Shown: positions 23,803 through 55,494 of the stretch, in pieces | How positions within the stretch are numbered: position 1 is the first letter of the stretch | Layout of the letters: the number at the start of each line of letters is the position of its first letter | Assembly: GCA_016874755.1 (NCBI GenBank) | Contig: VGTH01000028.1 | Coordinates: forward strand, 1-64,000 | Source: Deltaproteobacteria bacterium | GTDB taxonomy: Bacteria; Desulfobacterota; Binatia; UBA9968 | Length of the DNA stretch: 64,000 bases | Direction of reading: 5' to 3' | Translations under genes and position numbers: made by a program | Notes under the pieces: model-generated | Seen by the model: the letters and a program-made list of their open reading frames with translations, nothing else | Databases searched by the model: none | Told to the model about the DNA's origin: nothing

Positions 23803-25971
23803 ATGGCTAGCGAAACAAGCAAACCCACCGTCTGGCGCGATCTGACTCCCCTCATCGCCCCGCGCTCCGTCGCCATCGTCGGTGCGTCGCAGCGCGGCGC
23901 CGATGCCAACTTGGCGCGTGAGCCGCGCGGCAACCGGGTGATTCGCAATCTGAAAAATTTCGGCTACACCGGCCGCATCTTCACGGTCAATCCGAAGTAC
24001 AGCGAGGTGATGGGCTATCCTTGTTATCCCGATATCGCCTCGATTCCCGAGCCGCCCGATTGTTTAGTCTCGGCGGTGCCCAATCGCCATGTGCCGGACT
24101 TGTTGGAATCGGCGGCCAACGCGGGAGTGAAAGCTGCCGTCGTGTTCGCCGCCGGCTTCGGCGAGATCGGCGGCGAGGGCAAAGCGCGTCAAGCGCGTTT
24201 GGAAGCACTCTCGAAAGAAAAAGGGTTTCTCATCTGCGGCCCCAATTGCTACGGCGTGTTGAATGTCTATGGCAAAGCCTTGTTGTTCGCTTCGACCATC
24301 CCACCGGGATTTGTCGAAGGCAACGTCGCGTTGATTTCGCAAAGCGGTGGTCTCAGCACGACCATCGCCAACGCCATGATGCTCAACCGCCAGGTCGGCT
24401 TGAGCCACATCATCTCCTGCGGCAATCAGACCGGTGCGACACTGGAAGAGTACATCAACTATTTCGTCGAGGATAAAAACAGCAAAGTCATCGCCGTCTT
24501 CGCCGAGGGCTTCAAGCAGCCGGAAAAGCTTTTGCCGGTGGCGCGCAAGGCCGCCGCAGCAAACAAACCGCTGGTGATCCTCAAAGGCGGCCGCTCCGAT
24601 GTTTCCAAGCGCGCCGCCGCAACTCATTCCGGCTCGCTTGCCGGCGCGGCCGAAGTGGTCGACGCGGCGTTTCGTCAGGGCGGGATTATTTCCGTGCGCA
24701 GCTTGAACGAGCTGCTCGACACCGTCAGCGTACTTTCTTGCGACGGTTTCATGAAAAAATACCGCGGCGGCCGGCGCATCGGTGTGCTCAGCGGCTCGGG
24801 CGGCGAATGCACGCTGGTCTCCGACGCTGCGTCCAGCGTCGGCGTCGAAGTACCGGAGCTGACCGCAGCAACCAAAAGCAAGCTGCAAGCGAGCGTCGCC
24901 GACTTCGGCAACATGAATAACCCGCTCGACGGCACCGGCGCGATGTACGACGACGAGAAGATTTTTCCCAATCTGCTCCAAGGCCTCATCGACGACGCCA
25001 ACATCGACGTCGTAACAATCAACTTAGAAGCCAACGACCCGCGCCCGAAAGAACTAAAGAGCGGCGGCCGCTTCGCCAAGCTGATCGAGCAAGCCGCAGC
25101 TGCGAGTGGCAAACCGATCGCAACATTTAGTTCCATCGTCGGCGGCCCGGTCGACCCCGAGATACTCAAGCCGCTGCGCGAAGCTGGCGTGCCGCTCATG
25201 GAGGGCGCCGAAGCGGCGACTGCGACGATCAGGAATCTTGCCGAGTATTTTGAATTTCACAAGCAACGCGGCGGTGAGGTTCCTTTTCCGCAAACTCATT
25301 CTAAGCTACCGGCGGGAATTCTCGGTGCCGAGGCCAGCTTCGCGCTCTTCGCGGAATTCAACATTGCCACCGCCCCGACAGTATTGGCACGCAGCGCCGA
25401 TCAAGCGGCGGCAGCAGCGGAAAAGATGGGCTACCCGGTGGTGCTCAAAGTCGAGTCGGCGGAGATCACCCACAAGAGCGATGTCGGCGCAGTGATCTTG
25501 AAACTGGCTAACAGCGCCGCGGTGCGCGAGGCCTACGCGCGCATCAACGAACAAGTGCGCGCCAAAGTACCCACGGCCAAGGTCGACGGTGTCGTGGTGC
25601 AGAAAATGGCCGGCGAAGGCATCGAAATGATTCTCGGCGTCAAGCGCGATCCGCTCTTCGGCCCGGTGGTCCTGTGCGGCTTGGGCGGGATTCTCGTCGA
25701 AGTGCTGCAAGATGTCTCGGTTGGCATTCCACCGCTGGCGAAAGATCAAGCTGCGGCCATGATCCAGCGCCTGCGCGGCGCGGCGATTCTTGGCGGCGTG
25801 CGCGGCAAACCGCCGGCGGATGTCGAAGCGTTGGCCGATGCGATCGTGAAAGTTGGCAATCTCGCCGCGAGTCTCGGCGATCAGCTAAATGGCCTCGATA
25901 TCAATCCGTTGATCGTGCTGCCAAAGGGAGACGGTGTGGTTGCGGTCGATGCAGTTGTGGAGATTTTATGA
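23803..25971 (+). CDS. Acyl-CoA synthetase, NDP-forming (fused alpha-beta ACD family)
   Basis: 722 residues. Residues 15-145 are a CoA-binding Rossmann domain (SVAIVGASQRG, TVNPKY). Residues 150-300 are the succinyl-CoA-ligase-like domain with LISQSGGLSTTIANAM and ATHSGSLAG, whose His275 fits the phosphohistidine of the family. Residues 310-460 are a flavodoxin-like third domain. Residues 500-722 are the ATP-grasp beta part (GYPVVLKVESAEITHKSDVG). It makes acyl-CoA from an acid and CoA with ADP formation, or the reverse. Alpha and beta parts are fused, as in acetyl/pimeloyl- and feruloyl-CoA synthetases. It could activate the acid handled by the neighbouring crotonases. Its stop overlaps the next start (ATGA). 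Confidence 0.93.
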   Translation: MASETSKPTVWRDLTPLIAPRSVAIVGASQRGADANLAREPRGNRVIRNLKNFGYTGRIFTVNPKYSEVMGYPCYPDIASIPEPPDCLVSAVPNRHVPDLLESAANAGVKAAVVFAAGFGEIGGEGKARQARLEALSKEKGFLICGPNCYGVLNVYGKALLFASTIPPGFVEGNVALISQSGGLSTTIANAMMLNRQVGLSHIISCGNQTGATLEEYINYFVEDKNSKVIAVFAEGFKQPEKLLPVARKAAAANKPLVILKGGRSDVSKRAAATHSGSLAGAAEVVDAAFRQGGIISVRSLNELLDTVSVLSCDGFMKKYRGGRRIGVLSGSGGECTLVSDAASSVGVEVPELTAATKSKLQASVADFGNMNNPLDGTGAMYDDEKIFPNLLQGLIDDANIDVVTINLEANDPRPKELKSGGRFAKLIEQAAAASGKPIATFSSIVGGPVDPEILKPLREAGVPLMEGAEAATATIRNLAEYFEFHKQRGGEVPFPQTHSKLPAGILGAEASFALFAEFNIATAPTVLARSADQAAAAAEKMGYPVVLKVESAEITHKSDVGAVILKLANSAAVREAYARINEQVRAKVPTAKVDGVVVQKMAGEGIEMILGVKRDPLFGPVVLCGLGGILVEVLQDVSVGIPPLAKDQAAAMIQRLRGAAILGGVRGKPPADVEALADAIVKVGNLAASLGDQLNGLDINPLIVLPKGDGVVAVDAVVEIL

Positions 25972-27101
25972 TCATCAGACAAAAACCTCTCGCCACCTCA
26001 CAGAATCGATTTCCCCCCCCCTTTGAAAAAGGGGGGTTAGGGGGGATTTGCGCGCATCGAAGAAGAAAATCCCCCTCGATCCCCCTTTTTCAAAGGGGGA
26101 AGTCGGATCGCCTCATTGTCAGTAGCCCATATCTGCTCGCTGCGCTTGCCTCTGTGCTTGTGCTAATTCCATCACTCCTTCTCGCCCAGTCCAAGCCCTT
26201 GAAAGAAATCCGCGTTCCCTACGCACTCGGCGGCTCCACCGGATTTTTCTGGATCGCGCACAAGTCCGGTGCCTTCGAAAGACATGGCCTAAAAGTTCTC
26301 CCAATCTTCATGCGCGGCGGGCGCGAGGCGGTGCAAGCGCTGATCTCCAAAGACGTCAACATCATGCAGCAAGGCAGCTCCGGCGTCATCACGGCCTGGG
26401 CGCAGGGCGCGAAGGATCTCGTCGCCATCGGCGCCACGGGCAACAAACTCGACTACATTTTCGTCTCGACACCGGCGATCAAAAAACCCGCCGATCTCAA
26501 AGGCAAACGCATCGCCATCAGCCAGCTCGGCGCCAGCACCGACTTCATCGCCCGCATCGCGCTGCGTCAACTAGGGCTTTCCGACAAAGAAGTGACCATC
26601 GTCGGTCTCGGCGCCCAGGGCGAGCGTTGGGCCGCTCTCAGCGGCGGCCATGTCGACGCCTCGCTGTTTCAGCCGCCGGTGACGTTGCGCGCGCGCAAAC
26701 TGGGCATGCCGATCTGGATCGACTTCGCCAAAACCGATTACGAATACGTCACCGCCGGCCCGGTGACGACGCGCTCCTATATCAAAGCCGAACGAGACAC
26801 TGTGATGAATTTCATGCGCGGCCTGGCCGACGGCATGGAGTTTTACCGCGACGAAAAAAACAAGGAAACCGTGATCAAGCACCTGGGCGAATTCTACCGC
26901 TCGACCAACACCGAAGAGCTAGAGGAAACCCGCCGGGTCTACAGTCAAGTCTCGACGGGCTTGCCGATCGTCACCGTCAAGGCGATGGAGAACATGATCG
27001 CCAGCGACCGCGTGCTGTCGCAAGCCAACGTTAACGCGATGGATGTGCTCGATCTGTCGTTTTTGAAACAACTGGAAGAGGAACGGAGAACGAAGAAATA
27101 G
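25968..27101 (+). CDS. ABC transporter substrate-binding protein, NMT1 family, with repeat-derived leader
   Basis: 377 residues from ATG 25968, which overlaps the acyl-CoA synthetase stop. Residues 1-47 are unusual: the part PPPFEKGGLGGICA through IPLFQRGKSD is the translation of a hairpin repeat (26011-26103). The apparent signal peptide starts only after it (LIVSSPYLLAALASVLVLIP, then SLLLAQS). No ATG, GTG or TTG lies in frame between the repeat and the hydrophobic core, so the repeat has probably displaced the original start. The mature part is normal: IRVPYALGGSTGFFWIAHKS, LKGKRIAISQLGASTDF and MDVLDLSFLKQLE. Whether the long leader is exported, or the gene is silenced, is open. Confidence 0.82.
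   Translation: MIIRQKPLATSQNRFPPPFEKGGLGGICAHRRRKSPSIPLFQRGKSDRLIVSSPYLLAALASVLVLIPSLLLAQSKPLKEIRVPYALGGSTGFFWIAHKSGAFERHGLKVLPIFMRGGREAVQALISKDVNIMQQGSSGVITAWAQGAKDLVAIGATGNKLDYIFVSTPAIKKPADLKGKRIAISQLGASTDFIARIALRQLGLSDKEVTIVGLGAQGERWAALSGGHVDASLFQPPVTLRARKLGMPIWIDFAKTDYEYVTAGPVTTRSYIKAERDTVMNFMRGLADGMEFYRDEKNKETVIKHLGEFYRSTNTEELEETRRVYSQVSTGLPIVTVKAMENMIASDRVLSQANVNAMDVLDLSFLKQLEEERRTKK
26011..26103. repeat. CCCCTTTGAAAAAGGGG-type hairpin repeat inside a CDS
   Basis: Left arm 26011-26049 and right arm 26067-26102 are inverted copies. Each arm also contains its own small palindrome (CCCCCTTTGAAAAAGGGGG and complement) followed by AGGGGGATTT. The element lies inside the N-terminal coding part of the NMT1-type gene and is read through in frame. 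Confidence 0.85.
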
Positions 27102-27316
27102 CGTCTAGCGTCTGGAGTTTAGCGTCTTGATTGGCAGGCTACTGAAAAACTCGTAAGAATGCTTCGACAGGTCTCAGCATGAACGGATTTTTCCCAACGA
27201 TTTCTACATCCGATCCGTTCGCCCTGAGCTCAGTCGAAGGGCTCCGAAGAGTTTTCAGCAGCCGCTCGCTTTGCGGCCAGAAAGAAGCCAGACGCTAGAC
27301 CCTAAACGCTAAACGC
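27095..27316. repeat. nested inverted repeats incl. GCTTCGACAG family copy 2
   Basis: Outer arms: TAGCGTCTGGAGTTTAGCG (27108-27126) and CCAGACGCTAGACCCTAAACG (27290-27310). Next inside: CTACTGAAAAACTC (27139-27152) with GAGTTTTCAGCAG (27259-27271). Inside again: GCTTCGACAGGTCTCAGCAT (from 27161) with its complement ending CAGTCGAAGG. Three repeat families are thus stacked concentrically in one 235-base gap. Confidence 0.75.
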
Positions 27317-27335
27317 GACCAACCAAGGAGCCCGC

Positions 27336-33628: not shown

Positions 33629-34714
33629 ATGACCAACCTACGCATCATCGACGCCGACGGCCACGTCCAGGAGCGCGATGCCAACTGGCAAGAGCTCTTG
33701 CCCGCCTCCCTGCGAAAACATGCGCCGAGCATGGTGCAGTGCGCCGATGGGCGCACGCATTTATTGCTCGAAGGGAAAATCTGGGCCAAGCCGAGCGGCA
33801 AGGGCTGCGGCATCGGCACCGCGCCGATCACGCGCAAGCCGCGCACCACCACCGGCATGTGGGACCCGGTGCAGCGTATCAAAGACATGGACATGGAAGG
33901 CATCGACACCGCGGTCAACTTCGGCACCACGGTGTTTTTGAGCCTGCCGTTTCTCGAAAACAACGATCTGGCTTGCGCGGTCGCGCACGGCTACAACACC
34001 TGGCTGCACCAATACTCGCAACACAATCCCAAACGCTTGAAAGGCGTTGCGCTGGTCGCGCAACAAGAACCGCTCGAAGCGGCCAAAGAACTTGAACGCT
34101 GCGTCAAAGAACTCGGCTTTGTCGCCGTCGCAGTCGCGGGCCATTCCGCCGGACGAAATCTCGATCACCCCGATCTCTATCCCTTCTACGCCAAAGCCCA
34201 AGAGCTCGGCGTGCCGGTGTGCTGCCACGTCGGCTCCGGCCGACCGGCGGCAGCCGCGGAGCGATTCGACAACCCCTATTTCGTCCACGCGACGACCCAT
34301 GCCTTCGAGCAGATGATCGGCGTCATGTGCATCGTCGGCGGCGGCATTCTCGAAAAATTTCCCAAGCTGAAAATCGCCTTCTTAGAAGCCGGCGCCGGCT
34401 GGGTGCCCTACTGGATGGAACGATTGGACGAGCATTACGAGTACATGTCTCCTGCCGTGCCACTGATGAAAAAAGAGCCGAGCGAATACATGAAGAGCGA
34501 GCAGGTTTGGTATTCGTTCGAGCCCGATGAACACACGCTCAATTTCGTCATGGACTACGTCGGCGAAGACCGGTTCGTCTTCGCGTCGGATTACAATCAC
34601 GGCGACAGCAAATTTCCCAATACCGTTAAGTCAGTTACCGAGCGCAAGAATTTGACCGAGGCGCAGTTGCGCAAGTTGATGTGCGACAACGCGGCAAGGC
34701 TGTATAACATCTGA
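33629..34714 (+). CDS. Amidohydrolase, ACMSD-like (COG2159) family
   Basis: 361 residues, no signal peptide, TAGGAGG upstream. Metal-dependent TIM-barrel hydrolase/decarboxylase pattern: IIDADGHVQERDANW (only one His of the usual DxHxH is seen at the N-terminus, as in many members), metal His in VPVCCHVGSGRP, a second His near HATTHAFEQM, and the late Asp in FASDYNHGDSKFP. The family includes decarboxylases such as ACMSD and gamma-resorcylate decarboxylase, and lactone hydrolases. Lies between two binding-protein genes in one direction. Confidence 0.88.
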   Translation: MTNLRIIDADGHVQERDANWQELLPASLRKHAPSMVQCADGRTHLLLEGKIWAKPSGKGCGIGTAPITRKPRTTTGMWDPVQRIKDMDMEGIDTAVNFGTTVFLSLPFLENNDLACAVAHGYNTWLHQYSQHNPKRLKGVALVAQQEPLEAAKELERCVKELGFVAVAVAGHSAGRNLDHPDLYPFYAKAQELGVPVCCHVGSGRPAAAAERFDNPYFVHATTHAFEQMIGVMCIVGGGILEKFPKLKIAFLEAGAGWVPYWMERLDEHYEYMSPAVPLMKKEPSEYMKSEQVWYSFEPDEHTLNFVMDYVGEDRFVFASDYNHGDSKFPNTVKSVTERKNLTEAQLRKLMCDNAARLYNI

Positions 34715-34861
34715 ATAGGCAACAGGCGCGAGGCAACAGTTTCGAACGGTTTCGGCGAAATCTGGAGTAGCGCGATGGCCATCTTAAGCATCATCAAAGC
34801 TCGCATCGTCGTTTTGACCGCATGGACTGTTGCCTGCTGCCTGTTGCCTGTTGCCTCTTCA
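34715..34861. repeat. GGCAACAGG/CCTGTTGCC inverted repeat, right arm inside a signal peptide
   Basis: Left arm 34715-34740 (AATAGGCAACAGGCGCGAGG). Right arm 34825-34861 with three CTGTTGCC or CTGCTGCC units, all in the N-terminal coding part of the binding-protein gene. Related to the repeat at 2408-2476. Confidence 0.7.
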
Positions 34862-35785
34862 GCGCAGCTGAAGAAAATCCGCTGGGGCGTGACCTCCATT
34901 TCGGCCTCCCAGTGGATTCCCTGGATCGCCAAGGACGCGCGCATCTATGACAAGCACGGTCTGGAGGTGGAGCTGATCTTGCTGCGCGGCTCGGGGCAGT
35001 CCTCGCAAGCAATCCTCGGCGGCAGCATCTTCGCCGCGCCGGTAGCGCTGCCGACGGTGATCAACGCGGTTCTGGGCGGCGCCGATCTAGTCAACGTGGC
35101 CCACCCCGTGCCTGGCGTGCAGAGCAAGCTCCTGGTCAAGCCGGAGATCAAGCGGCCGGAGGACTTGCGCGGCAAAAGAATCGCCGTGTCGACGCTCGGC
35201 TCGCTCGGCGATTTTCTCAACCGCTATATCCTCCGCAAGCACGGCATGGAACCCGGCCGAGACGTGATCATGTTTGCCGTGGGCAACACGCCCGAGCGGA
35301 TCCAGGCCCTGATTTCGGGCAATGTCGAGGCCGCCGATCTTTCCTATCCTGCCGACGTGCAAGCCGAGCGATTGGGCTTCAGAGTTTTGTGGAACGCCAG
35401 GAACGAGGTCACCTACCCATCCATGTCGGTGGTGACGCGCCGCAAGCTTATCACCGAAGACCGCGACACCGTCATGCGCATGGTCAAGGCGCACGTGGAG
35501 GCGATCCATTTTCTCAAGACGAACAAAAAGCCGAGCATGAAGATTCTCGGCAAATATCTCAAAACGACGGAGCGGGAGCTGCTCGAAGGCTCCTATGAGA
35601 TCTATCGCAGCGATTTCATCTCGGTGCCCTACCCGATCACCCACGGACTGCAGGCGACTTACGAATACGTCGCCACCCAGCGCCCGGAGGTGTGGAAGCA
35701 CAAACCCGAGGCATTCGTGGATGCGAGCTTTATCGCCGAGTTGGAGAAAAGCGGATTTATCAGGAATCTCACCGCGGCGCGGTGA
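34775..35785 (+). CDS. ABC transporter substrate-binding protein, NMT1 family
   Basis: 336 residues. The N-terminus MAILSIIKARIVVLTAWTVA, CCLLPVASSAQ is a signal peptide, but its hydrophobic and cleavage part is coded by the arm of a repeat (TTGCCTGCTGCCTGTTGCC, 34829-34847, and on). The mature part KIRWGVTSISASQWIPWIAK and DARIYDKHGLEVELILLRGS is a normal NMT1-type N-lobe, and LRGKRIAVSTLGSLGDFLN is the hinge. Intact and full length. Converges on the response-regulator gene downstream. Confidence 0.88.
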   Translation: MAILSIIKARIVVLTAWTVACCLLPVASSAQLKKIRWGVTSISASQWIPWIAKDARIYDKHGLEVELILLRGSGQSSQAILGGSIFAAPVALPTVINAVLGGADLVNVAHPVPGVQSKLLVKPEIKRPEDLRGKRIAVSTLGSLGDFLNRYILRKHGMEPGRDVIMFAVGNTPERIQALISGNVEAADLSYPADVQAERLGFRVLWNARNEVTYPSMSVVTRRKLITEDRDTVMRMVKAHVEAIHFLKTNKKPSMKILGKYLKTTERELLEGSYEIYRSDFISVPYPITHGLQATYEYVATQRPEVWKHKPEAFVDASFIAELEKSGFIRNLTAAR

Positions 35786-44410: not shown

Positions 44411-44440
44411 AAATCACCTGTGTGCTGTGTGAAAAAACTC

Positions 44441-44517
44441 ATTCACAACGAAGGCACGAAGATCACGAAGAGGAAAACCCTTTTCCGAACTTCGTGTCCT
44501 TCGTGCCTTCGTGGTGC
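44441..44517. repeat. CACGAAG-type inverted repeat, copy 4
   Basis: CACAACGAAGGCACGAAGAT and its near complement CCTTCGTGCCTTCGTGGTG surround an AT-rich centre between two minus-strand genes. Confidence 0.8.
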
Positions 44518-44529
44518 AAAAATCTTTTT

Positions 44530-49216: not shown

Positions 49217-49302
49217 TTCACCACGAAGGCGCGAAGGCCACGAAGTTCGGAAAAAGTATTCTTTTTTCTTACCTTCGTGCTCTTCGTGCCTTCGTGGTGA
49301 AC
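49216..49302. repeat. CACGAAG-type inverted repeat, copy 5
   Basis: TTCACCACGAAGGCGCGAAG and CTTCGTGCCTTCGTGGTGAA are near-perfect complements. Starts at the prpB stop codon. Confidence 0.85.
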
Positions 49303-55207: not shown

Positions 55208-55398
55208 ATCCCGGTTCCTTCCCTGGTGGCGATCTAGTCTCGACTCGGGAGATTATAGCGCAACTTCGCTTCGGCAGGTAGGACAAACTAAATGGCAGGG
55301 AGCCAGAGAGGTGAGCGGAGCAAGCCGTTGTCCGGCTCCGAACTAGTGTAGTGTTTCAGTAATAACCGTGCTTATTGTTGTGACACGCTCGCCTGTTT

Positions 55399-55494
55399 TT
55401 CACCACGAAGATCACGAAGGGACACGAAGTTCGGAAAAGAATTCACTGTTTTCTTCTCTTACCTTCGTGTACTTCGTGCCCTTCGTGGTGAAAA
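55399..55494. repeat. CACGAAG-type inverted repeat, copy 6
   Basis: TTCACCACGAAGATCACGAA and CGTGCCCTTCGTGGTGAAAA with an AT-rich centre. It fills about a quarter of the gene-free stretch 55208-55561; the rest shows no gene and no clear signal. Confidence 0.8.

Follow-up and report, generated by a model that had tools for sequence, protein, structure and literature searches.

The first 64,000 bases of contig C28 in a 5.56 Mb bacterial genome of 101 contigs (the window; the genome is referred to below as G000, and four further genomes of the same genus as G001 to G004) contain a gene for an NMT1/THI5-type binding protein in which a palindromic repeat lies between an in-frame ATG and the hydrophobic core of the signal peptide. 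We consider it probable, and the most likely of the readings weighed below, that this protein is translated from the ATG at position 25968 straight through the repeat. The sequence of the fusion, the recurrence of the repeat at other genes, the bias of these insertions towards the reading frame and the retention of the frame across species in some of these other genes are direct observations. The start region includes the following features:

23803..25971, plus strand: upstream gene, nucleoside diphosphate (NDP)-forming acyl-CoA synthetase type (open reading frame; Pfam ATP-grasp_5, Succ_CoA_lig, CoA_binding_2)
25959..25962, plus strand: GGAG, Shine-Dalgarno-like, 5 nt 5' of ATG 25968 (from the sequence; equal spacing in G001 and G003, by eye)
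25968..25970, plus strand: ATG, proposed start codon, with an overlap of -4 with the upstream stop TGA (25969-25971; from the sequence; overlap also in G001 and G003)
25968..27101, plus strand: fused open reading frame, 377 aa, comprising extension, signal peptide and NMT1/THI5-type binding protein (PF09084, E 9e-16)
26013..26021, plus strand: nine consecutive C, in frame, at the left edge of the repeat (from the sequence)
26015..26101, no strand assigned: palindromic repeat, 87 bases, bounds of covariance model R1 (E 9.8e-23)
26017..26049, no strand assigned: left arm (inverted-repeat search)
26067..26099, no strand assigned: right arm (inverted-repeat search)
26115..26117, plus strand: in-frame ATT, the sole rare-start candidate noted between repeat and core (from the sequence)
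26130..26186, plus strand: hydrophobic core of the signal peptide (YLLAALASVLVLIPSLLLA; hydropathy), containing the first in-frame GTG, 26154

The frame that begins at ATG 25968 is open through the repeat and the signal core to the stop codon at 27099-27101, in accord with the earlier note on this DNA, which described an inverted repeat read without a stop between this ATG and the core; the 90 bases assigned to the repeat there (26011-26103) become 87 under R1. The claim that no in-frame ATG, GTG or TTG separates the repeat from the core is likewise borne out, the first such codon being the GTG inside the core, with the ATT at 26115 ahead of it. The extension before the signal peptide stands as well, albeit not at the 40 residues originally given: the core is preceded by 54 codons, of which the repeat contributes about 30. 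The proposal that the repeat had built a new start codon overlapping the upstream stop is not supported, because the overlapping ATG is external to the repeat and occurs in G000, G001 and G003 (not in G004).

To compare this gene with other insertions, 80 element loci from the five genomes of the genus were classified (40 in G000, 30 in G001, three each in G002 and G003, and four in G004). For G000, 41 of the 49 places matched by R1 were read, two of them in a single locus, yielding the 40 classified loci, and the remaining eight are weak matches; L016, L043, L049 and L052, which derive from arm-core matches, stand outside the classification. The G001 loci represent 30 of the 31 elements among the matches listed (one near a contig end was omitted), those of G002-G004 represent all elements listed, and the elements of G005, G015, G017, G018 and G023 lie outside the locus set. 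A downstream gene was considered to have its own start if an ATG, GTG or TTG lies between the element and the hydrophobic core, or within 40 codons if there is no core, and locus strands lacking a clear downstream coding frame were dropped by score, which left 71 gene junctions. Such a start codon is present at 54 of these and missing at 17. An upstream ATG whose frame reads through the element is found at 14 of the 17 junctions without an own start compared to 4 of the 54 with one (Fisher p 7e-9), a contrast for which translation of the repeat is the simplest reading. In the three exceptions (L041, L046 and L157), a start codon lies within the element. Among the 14 genes, L039 and L131 may start just after the element or at its edge; upon their reassignment the counts become 12/15 versus 6/56 (p 5e-7) and, with shared insertions collapsed, 9/12 versus 6/56 (p 1.7e-5), both pairs of counts being hand-made from the 71 rows. 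As for the base rate, several genes with their own start (for example, L019, L028, L042 and L047) are also open through the element, without an upstream ATG.

A hydrophobic core was assigned by rule to 15 of the 17 genes versus 21 of the 54, a contrast that is descriptive only because the rule itself uses the core; the remaining two of the 17, L031 and L157, appear signal-peptide-like by eye. In five of the six G000 fusions (L014, L022, L031, L037 and L054, the exception being L027), an in-frame start codon shares a 4-nt overlap with the upstream stop; L054 is ranked by the rule with the own-start genes because a TTG follows its element. The upstream ATGs of L022 and L118 have good Shine-Dalgarno sequences. 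The frames of L041 and L157 begin within the element, and the only start codons ahead of the core in these genes are GTG or TTG in the spacer, so that the element itself may supply the start codon.

These patterns suggest the following scenario. The binding-protein gene would have lost its native start and would now open at the ATG that overlaps the upstream stop, with translation proceeding straight through the repeat and placing 54 residues ahead of the signal-peptide core. The n-region of Sec signal peptides is variable, favors basic residues and is normally removed together with the signal peptide. An insertion between start codon and core would be tolerable for this reason: the extension probably forms a long, basic n-region that is removed with the signal peptide, leaving the mature protein unchanged. 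The stretch between the start codon and the signal core would then be a site where the element can land and be tolerated, and out-of-frame insertions at the n-region, which would kill the gene, would be lost. Together, tolerance of in-frame insertions and loss of out-of-frame ones would account for the recurrence with no need for the repeat to have a function. Mobility of the element, translation of the fusions, their export and their cleavage are all predicted here from sequence.

Comparison of filled and empty sites across species bears on how these fusions arise and persist. In a gene of the DUF5329 family (assigned through its member L148), the element is present in frame in G001, G002 and G004, with lengths of 91, 88 and 88 nt, respectively, and an ATG 58 nt before the element in all three genomes; in the stretches read, the orthologues in G000 and G003 contain no element and start at the matching ATG. 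The distance from this ATG to a preceding CGTCTAA is 5 nt in G000 and 8 nt in G003 and in the three element carriers. We take this motif to resemble the -10 box of extracytoplasmic function (ECF) sigma promoters, and CGTCTAA is perhaps a promoter -10 box coupled to a leaderless start. Upstream of the DUF5329 gene, in L158-L166, CGTCTAA or a near-match was also noticed a few bases 5' of the first in-frame ATG in several orthologues. In a second shared set, L126 of G001 and L151 of G004, the element is again kept in frame, with the ATG 26 and 29 nt before it. Empty sites, in the form of element-free orthologues, were found for three genes: the DUF5329 gene, the AhpC/TSA-like L031, for which those in G001 and G005 open at the same ATGA overlap, and the Trypsin_2 gene L014, for which four have short n-regions and one starts with MKS like L014 itself. 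The element-free relative of the window gene, in G020, starts at a different ATG.

In the DUF5329 and L126/L151 sets, the proportion of synonymous differences (pS) within the element is 0.04-0.18 versus 0.47-0.59 at synonymous sites after the element, so that the element appears to be kept, or homogenized, as DNA. Judging from these alignments, retention at the protein level concerns the frame, and selection on the residues of the element is not evident.

The element is a strong hairpin present in many copies. The arms of the window copy are 33 nt each, 88% complementary and separated by 17 nt, and the RNA fold of the 221-nt region has an energy of -84.5 kcal/mol (z -4.41). The arm core CCCCCTTTTTCAAAGGGGG has four matches in the window with up to 3 mismatches (0.01 expected) and 66 in the whole genome with up to 2 mismatches, compared to none for the reversed control. 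The covariance model R1, built on 20 copies including the one in the window, yields 91 matches in G000 at E<=0.01 with both strands pooled, corresponding to 49 distinct places, and has matches in at least 15 of 25 genomes of the family, G000 included (E<=0.001). Alignment of the 20 two-arm copies shows conserved arms and a variable spacer, that is, an inverted pair of palindromic units around a spacer. Being a dispersed, many-copy palindrome that is read in frame within protein genes beyond chance, the element fits the class of the Rickettsia palindromic elements (RPE) on both counts. Across the six frames of 59 full-length copies, 43% are open versus 27% in shuffled bases, and the repeat peptides of 12 fusions have a net charge of +3 to +7; the arms contain few stop codons and would encode basic, Gly/Pro-rich peptides. 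The repeat in the window is best read as a single copy of a dispersed and presumably mobile REPIN-like palindrome that belongs to a Candidatus Binatia-like bacterium.

Past the first few bases at the element ends, the flanks of 21 two-arm copies show no clear inversion or duplication signal. A known RNA family was considered as an identity for the region and rejected: the 13 Rfam matches at E<=1, to microRNA (miRNA) and small nucleolar RNA (snoRNA) families, all score under the gathering thresholds and are taken as chance matches of a strong hairpin. A search of a plasmid collection gave one weak partial match only, and neither the arm strings nor the peptides PPFEKGGLGG and IPLFQRG were found in the literature searched.

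Several other arrangements of repeats were noticed. A single-arm copy of the element lies in frame between the ATG and the membrane segment of L010, a gene that is penicillin-binding-protein-like by eye. In L037, which encodes an M16 family peptidase, the right arm of the element contains another, nested repeat with TTTCAAAG on either side, and the whole remains in frame; the TTTCAAAG pair is perhaps a target duplication. At the next junction downstream of the binding-protein gene (window positions 27102-27335), at least two further kinds of palindromic repeat occur, TAGCGTCT...AGACGCTA and CTTCGACAGG...CAGTCGAAGG. Elsewhere in the window, three inverted repeats are of the CACGAAG...CTTCGTG kind (44432-44528, 49217-49301 and 55397-55494), and those at 2408-2474 and 34711-34862 are made of AGGCAACAGGC-like words.

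The best named orthologues of the binding protein, with 78-79% identity, are found in bins titled Candidatus Binatia bacterium and Deltaproteobacteria bacterium. A close orthologue next to the same upstream gene is present in G001, G003 and G004, and G002 has no close orthologue at E<=1e-90. At the junction in G001, an element of the same family precedes a binding-protein gene with its own GGAGG-ATG; compared to the window, the distance from the overlapping ATG to the element differs by 18 nt and the element itself by 3 nt, both multiples of three. In this locus (L128, G001:C23:48123-51012), an open frame of 86 codons leads from the overlapping ATG across the element and another palindromic repeat to a TGA on the ATG of the binding protein, making a leader peptide built largely of repeats a possible product. 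The junctions in G004 (L058) and G003 (L061) contain two other kinds of repeats, read as VIPAKAGIQ...LDSRVHGND and LSLSKD, that are in frame with the binding protein but are followed by an ATG. In G020, which belongs to another genus (the same sequence has a named record, L079), no repeat is seen at the junction, and the gene has its own GGAGGAAATATG with a clear GGAGG. Given that the orthologues start close to the core, the native start was probably located there and is absent from the window gene. A repeat-derived extension and a lost start, which the earlier note posed as alternatives, are thus favored in combination, the near-core ATG of the orthologues being absent here. The comparison of start regions that it called for revealed the window extension in none of the repeat-free orthologues read. 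The binding-protein family itself is very large, with at least 150 matches to the window protein in G000 at E<=0.001; one of the G000 matches and two in G001 contain an internal TAG.

Several observations weigh against translation through the repeat. G001, the sole orthologue with the same element, has an overlapping-ATG frame that is not fused to the protein. The C9 run at 26013-26021, within which the left arm starts, is the only C or G run of at least 8 in the window, and the fusion is in frame only if its length is correct. No selection is seen on the residues of the element in the shared sets, with the proportion of nonsynonymous differences (pN) at 0.13-0.22, about equal to or above pS, and none on the residues of the short stretch before the element, where pN is 0.39-0.66, corrected or not. 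No clear Shine-Dalgarno sequence precedes the upstream ATGs of L014, L126 and L151, and GGAG 25959-25962 ahead of the window gene may be incidental because it also falls within conserved C-terminal codons of the upstream gene. The classifier relies on a home-made coding score and a rule for hydropathy, and spurious frames may be present among the 71 rows. Finally, pN between the window protein and its orthologues is 0.124-0.142 versus 0.032-0.097 among the other pairs (setting aside the nearly identical L059/L062, at 0.007); the upstream gene shows a weaker contrast (0.154-0.194 versus 0.064-0.177), so that some relaxation of selection on the binding protein is possible.

This last excess of pN, together with the absence of the native start, is what would be expected under the main rival explanation, in which the start was lost along with the sequence between repeat and core and the gene, hardly or not at all translated, is a young pseudogene with its mature frame still intact. 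We regard this as unlikely, given that 327 stop-free codons follow the repeat, that pN/pS against five orthologues is still 0.19-0.27, that an in-frame ATG with GGAG upstream is available, and that like arrangements in other genes are retained across species. Initiation at a rare codon after the repeat, such as ATT 26115, would turn the repeat into an untranslated leader. This codon is in frame near the core, where the orthologues start, and a caution to this effect is given in part of PMC3733652, according to which many repeats at predicted N-termini could be extragenic if translation starts downstream. Nevertheless, such initiation seems quite improbable: by eye, ATT 26115 has no good Shine-Dalgarno sequence at the usual spacing and no basic residue up to the core, and under this explanation upstream in-frame ATGs should be as rare as in the own-start genes, contrary to the counts obtained for the 17 junctions. 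An assembly or base-calling error in the C run, or a collapsed repeat, could also have produced an apparent fusion in a draft of 101 contigs with both a repeat and a C9 run at the site. We find this very improbable because the same-family element at the same junction in G001 argues against an artefact, which the earlier note had named among its refuting outcomes, because the spacer and flanks of the window copy are unlike those of the 20 other two-arm copies compared, and because a wrong length of the C run would neither create nor remove a start codon after the repeat. Translation from ATG 25968 through the repeat accordingly stays the preferred reading, at the strength given at the outset.

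Palindromes that are read as parts of proteins have precedents, of which the RPE are reportedly known from the work of Ogata and co-workers. As described in parts of PMC10969869 and PMC2229807, these are short, many-copy palindromes that lie in frame in otherwise ordinary protein genes, with unrelated, largely metabolic hosts. The present element is similarly a short, many-copy palindromic repeat read in frame inside protein genes; however, it has another sequence, belongs to another phylum and lies, in its fusions, between the start codon and the signal-peptide core. The enterobacterial RU-1, RU-2 and RU-3, described in part of PMC2759123, are small mobile repeats that form in-frame gene fusions and resemble the element to this extent. 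In the RU case covered there, the hydrophobic repeat peptide forms part of the signal sequence, whereas the peptides encoded here are basic and hydrophilic and precede an existing core, in an arrangement that recurs in several genes and is kept across species. Repetitive extragenic palindromic (REP) sequences within genes have been reported as well, many N-terminal cases being perhaps extragenic, with translation starting downstream (part of PMC3733652). The element shares with REPINs, as these are described in part of PMC3116915, inverted short palindromic units, a variable spacer, tens of copies and the presence of intergenic copies, and the genome likewise contains Y1-type transposase genes (three matches). 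It is not filed as a REPIN because no GTAG/CGTC tag was seen by eye in the consensus of 20 copies and because the element core (up to 3 mismatches) was found at none of the three Y1-type transposase genes of G000, within stretches of 2.2-3.3 kb; no link to REP-associated tyrosine transposases (RAYT) was found in these stretches. In the literature searched, we found no report of this element or of recurrent insertion between start codon and signal core. The element is best read as a variant of the protein-coding palindromes exemplified by RPE and RU that is new in its placement ahead of the core.

A further-reaching and doubtful possibility is that the n-region is a safe harbor for a mobile hairpin and that some copies have become parts of genes. 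Such copies would be kept in frame across species, with DNA far better conserved than synonymous positions elsewhere in the host gene, and would provide exported proteins with a basic presequence and their first codons with an mRNA hairpin; the window binding protein could, in addition, be switched on and off by slippage in the C9 run.

Read-through repeats at N-termini are easily blamed on wrong start calls, and the present set allows genes with and without a later start to be compared. The five genomes provide a test set for this purpose, and the N-termini of exported proteins in such genomes would be easily misannotated. The rule suggested by these cases is that mobile palindromes can enter proteins at the n-region, a part that would be removed on export.

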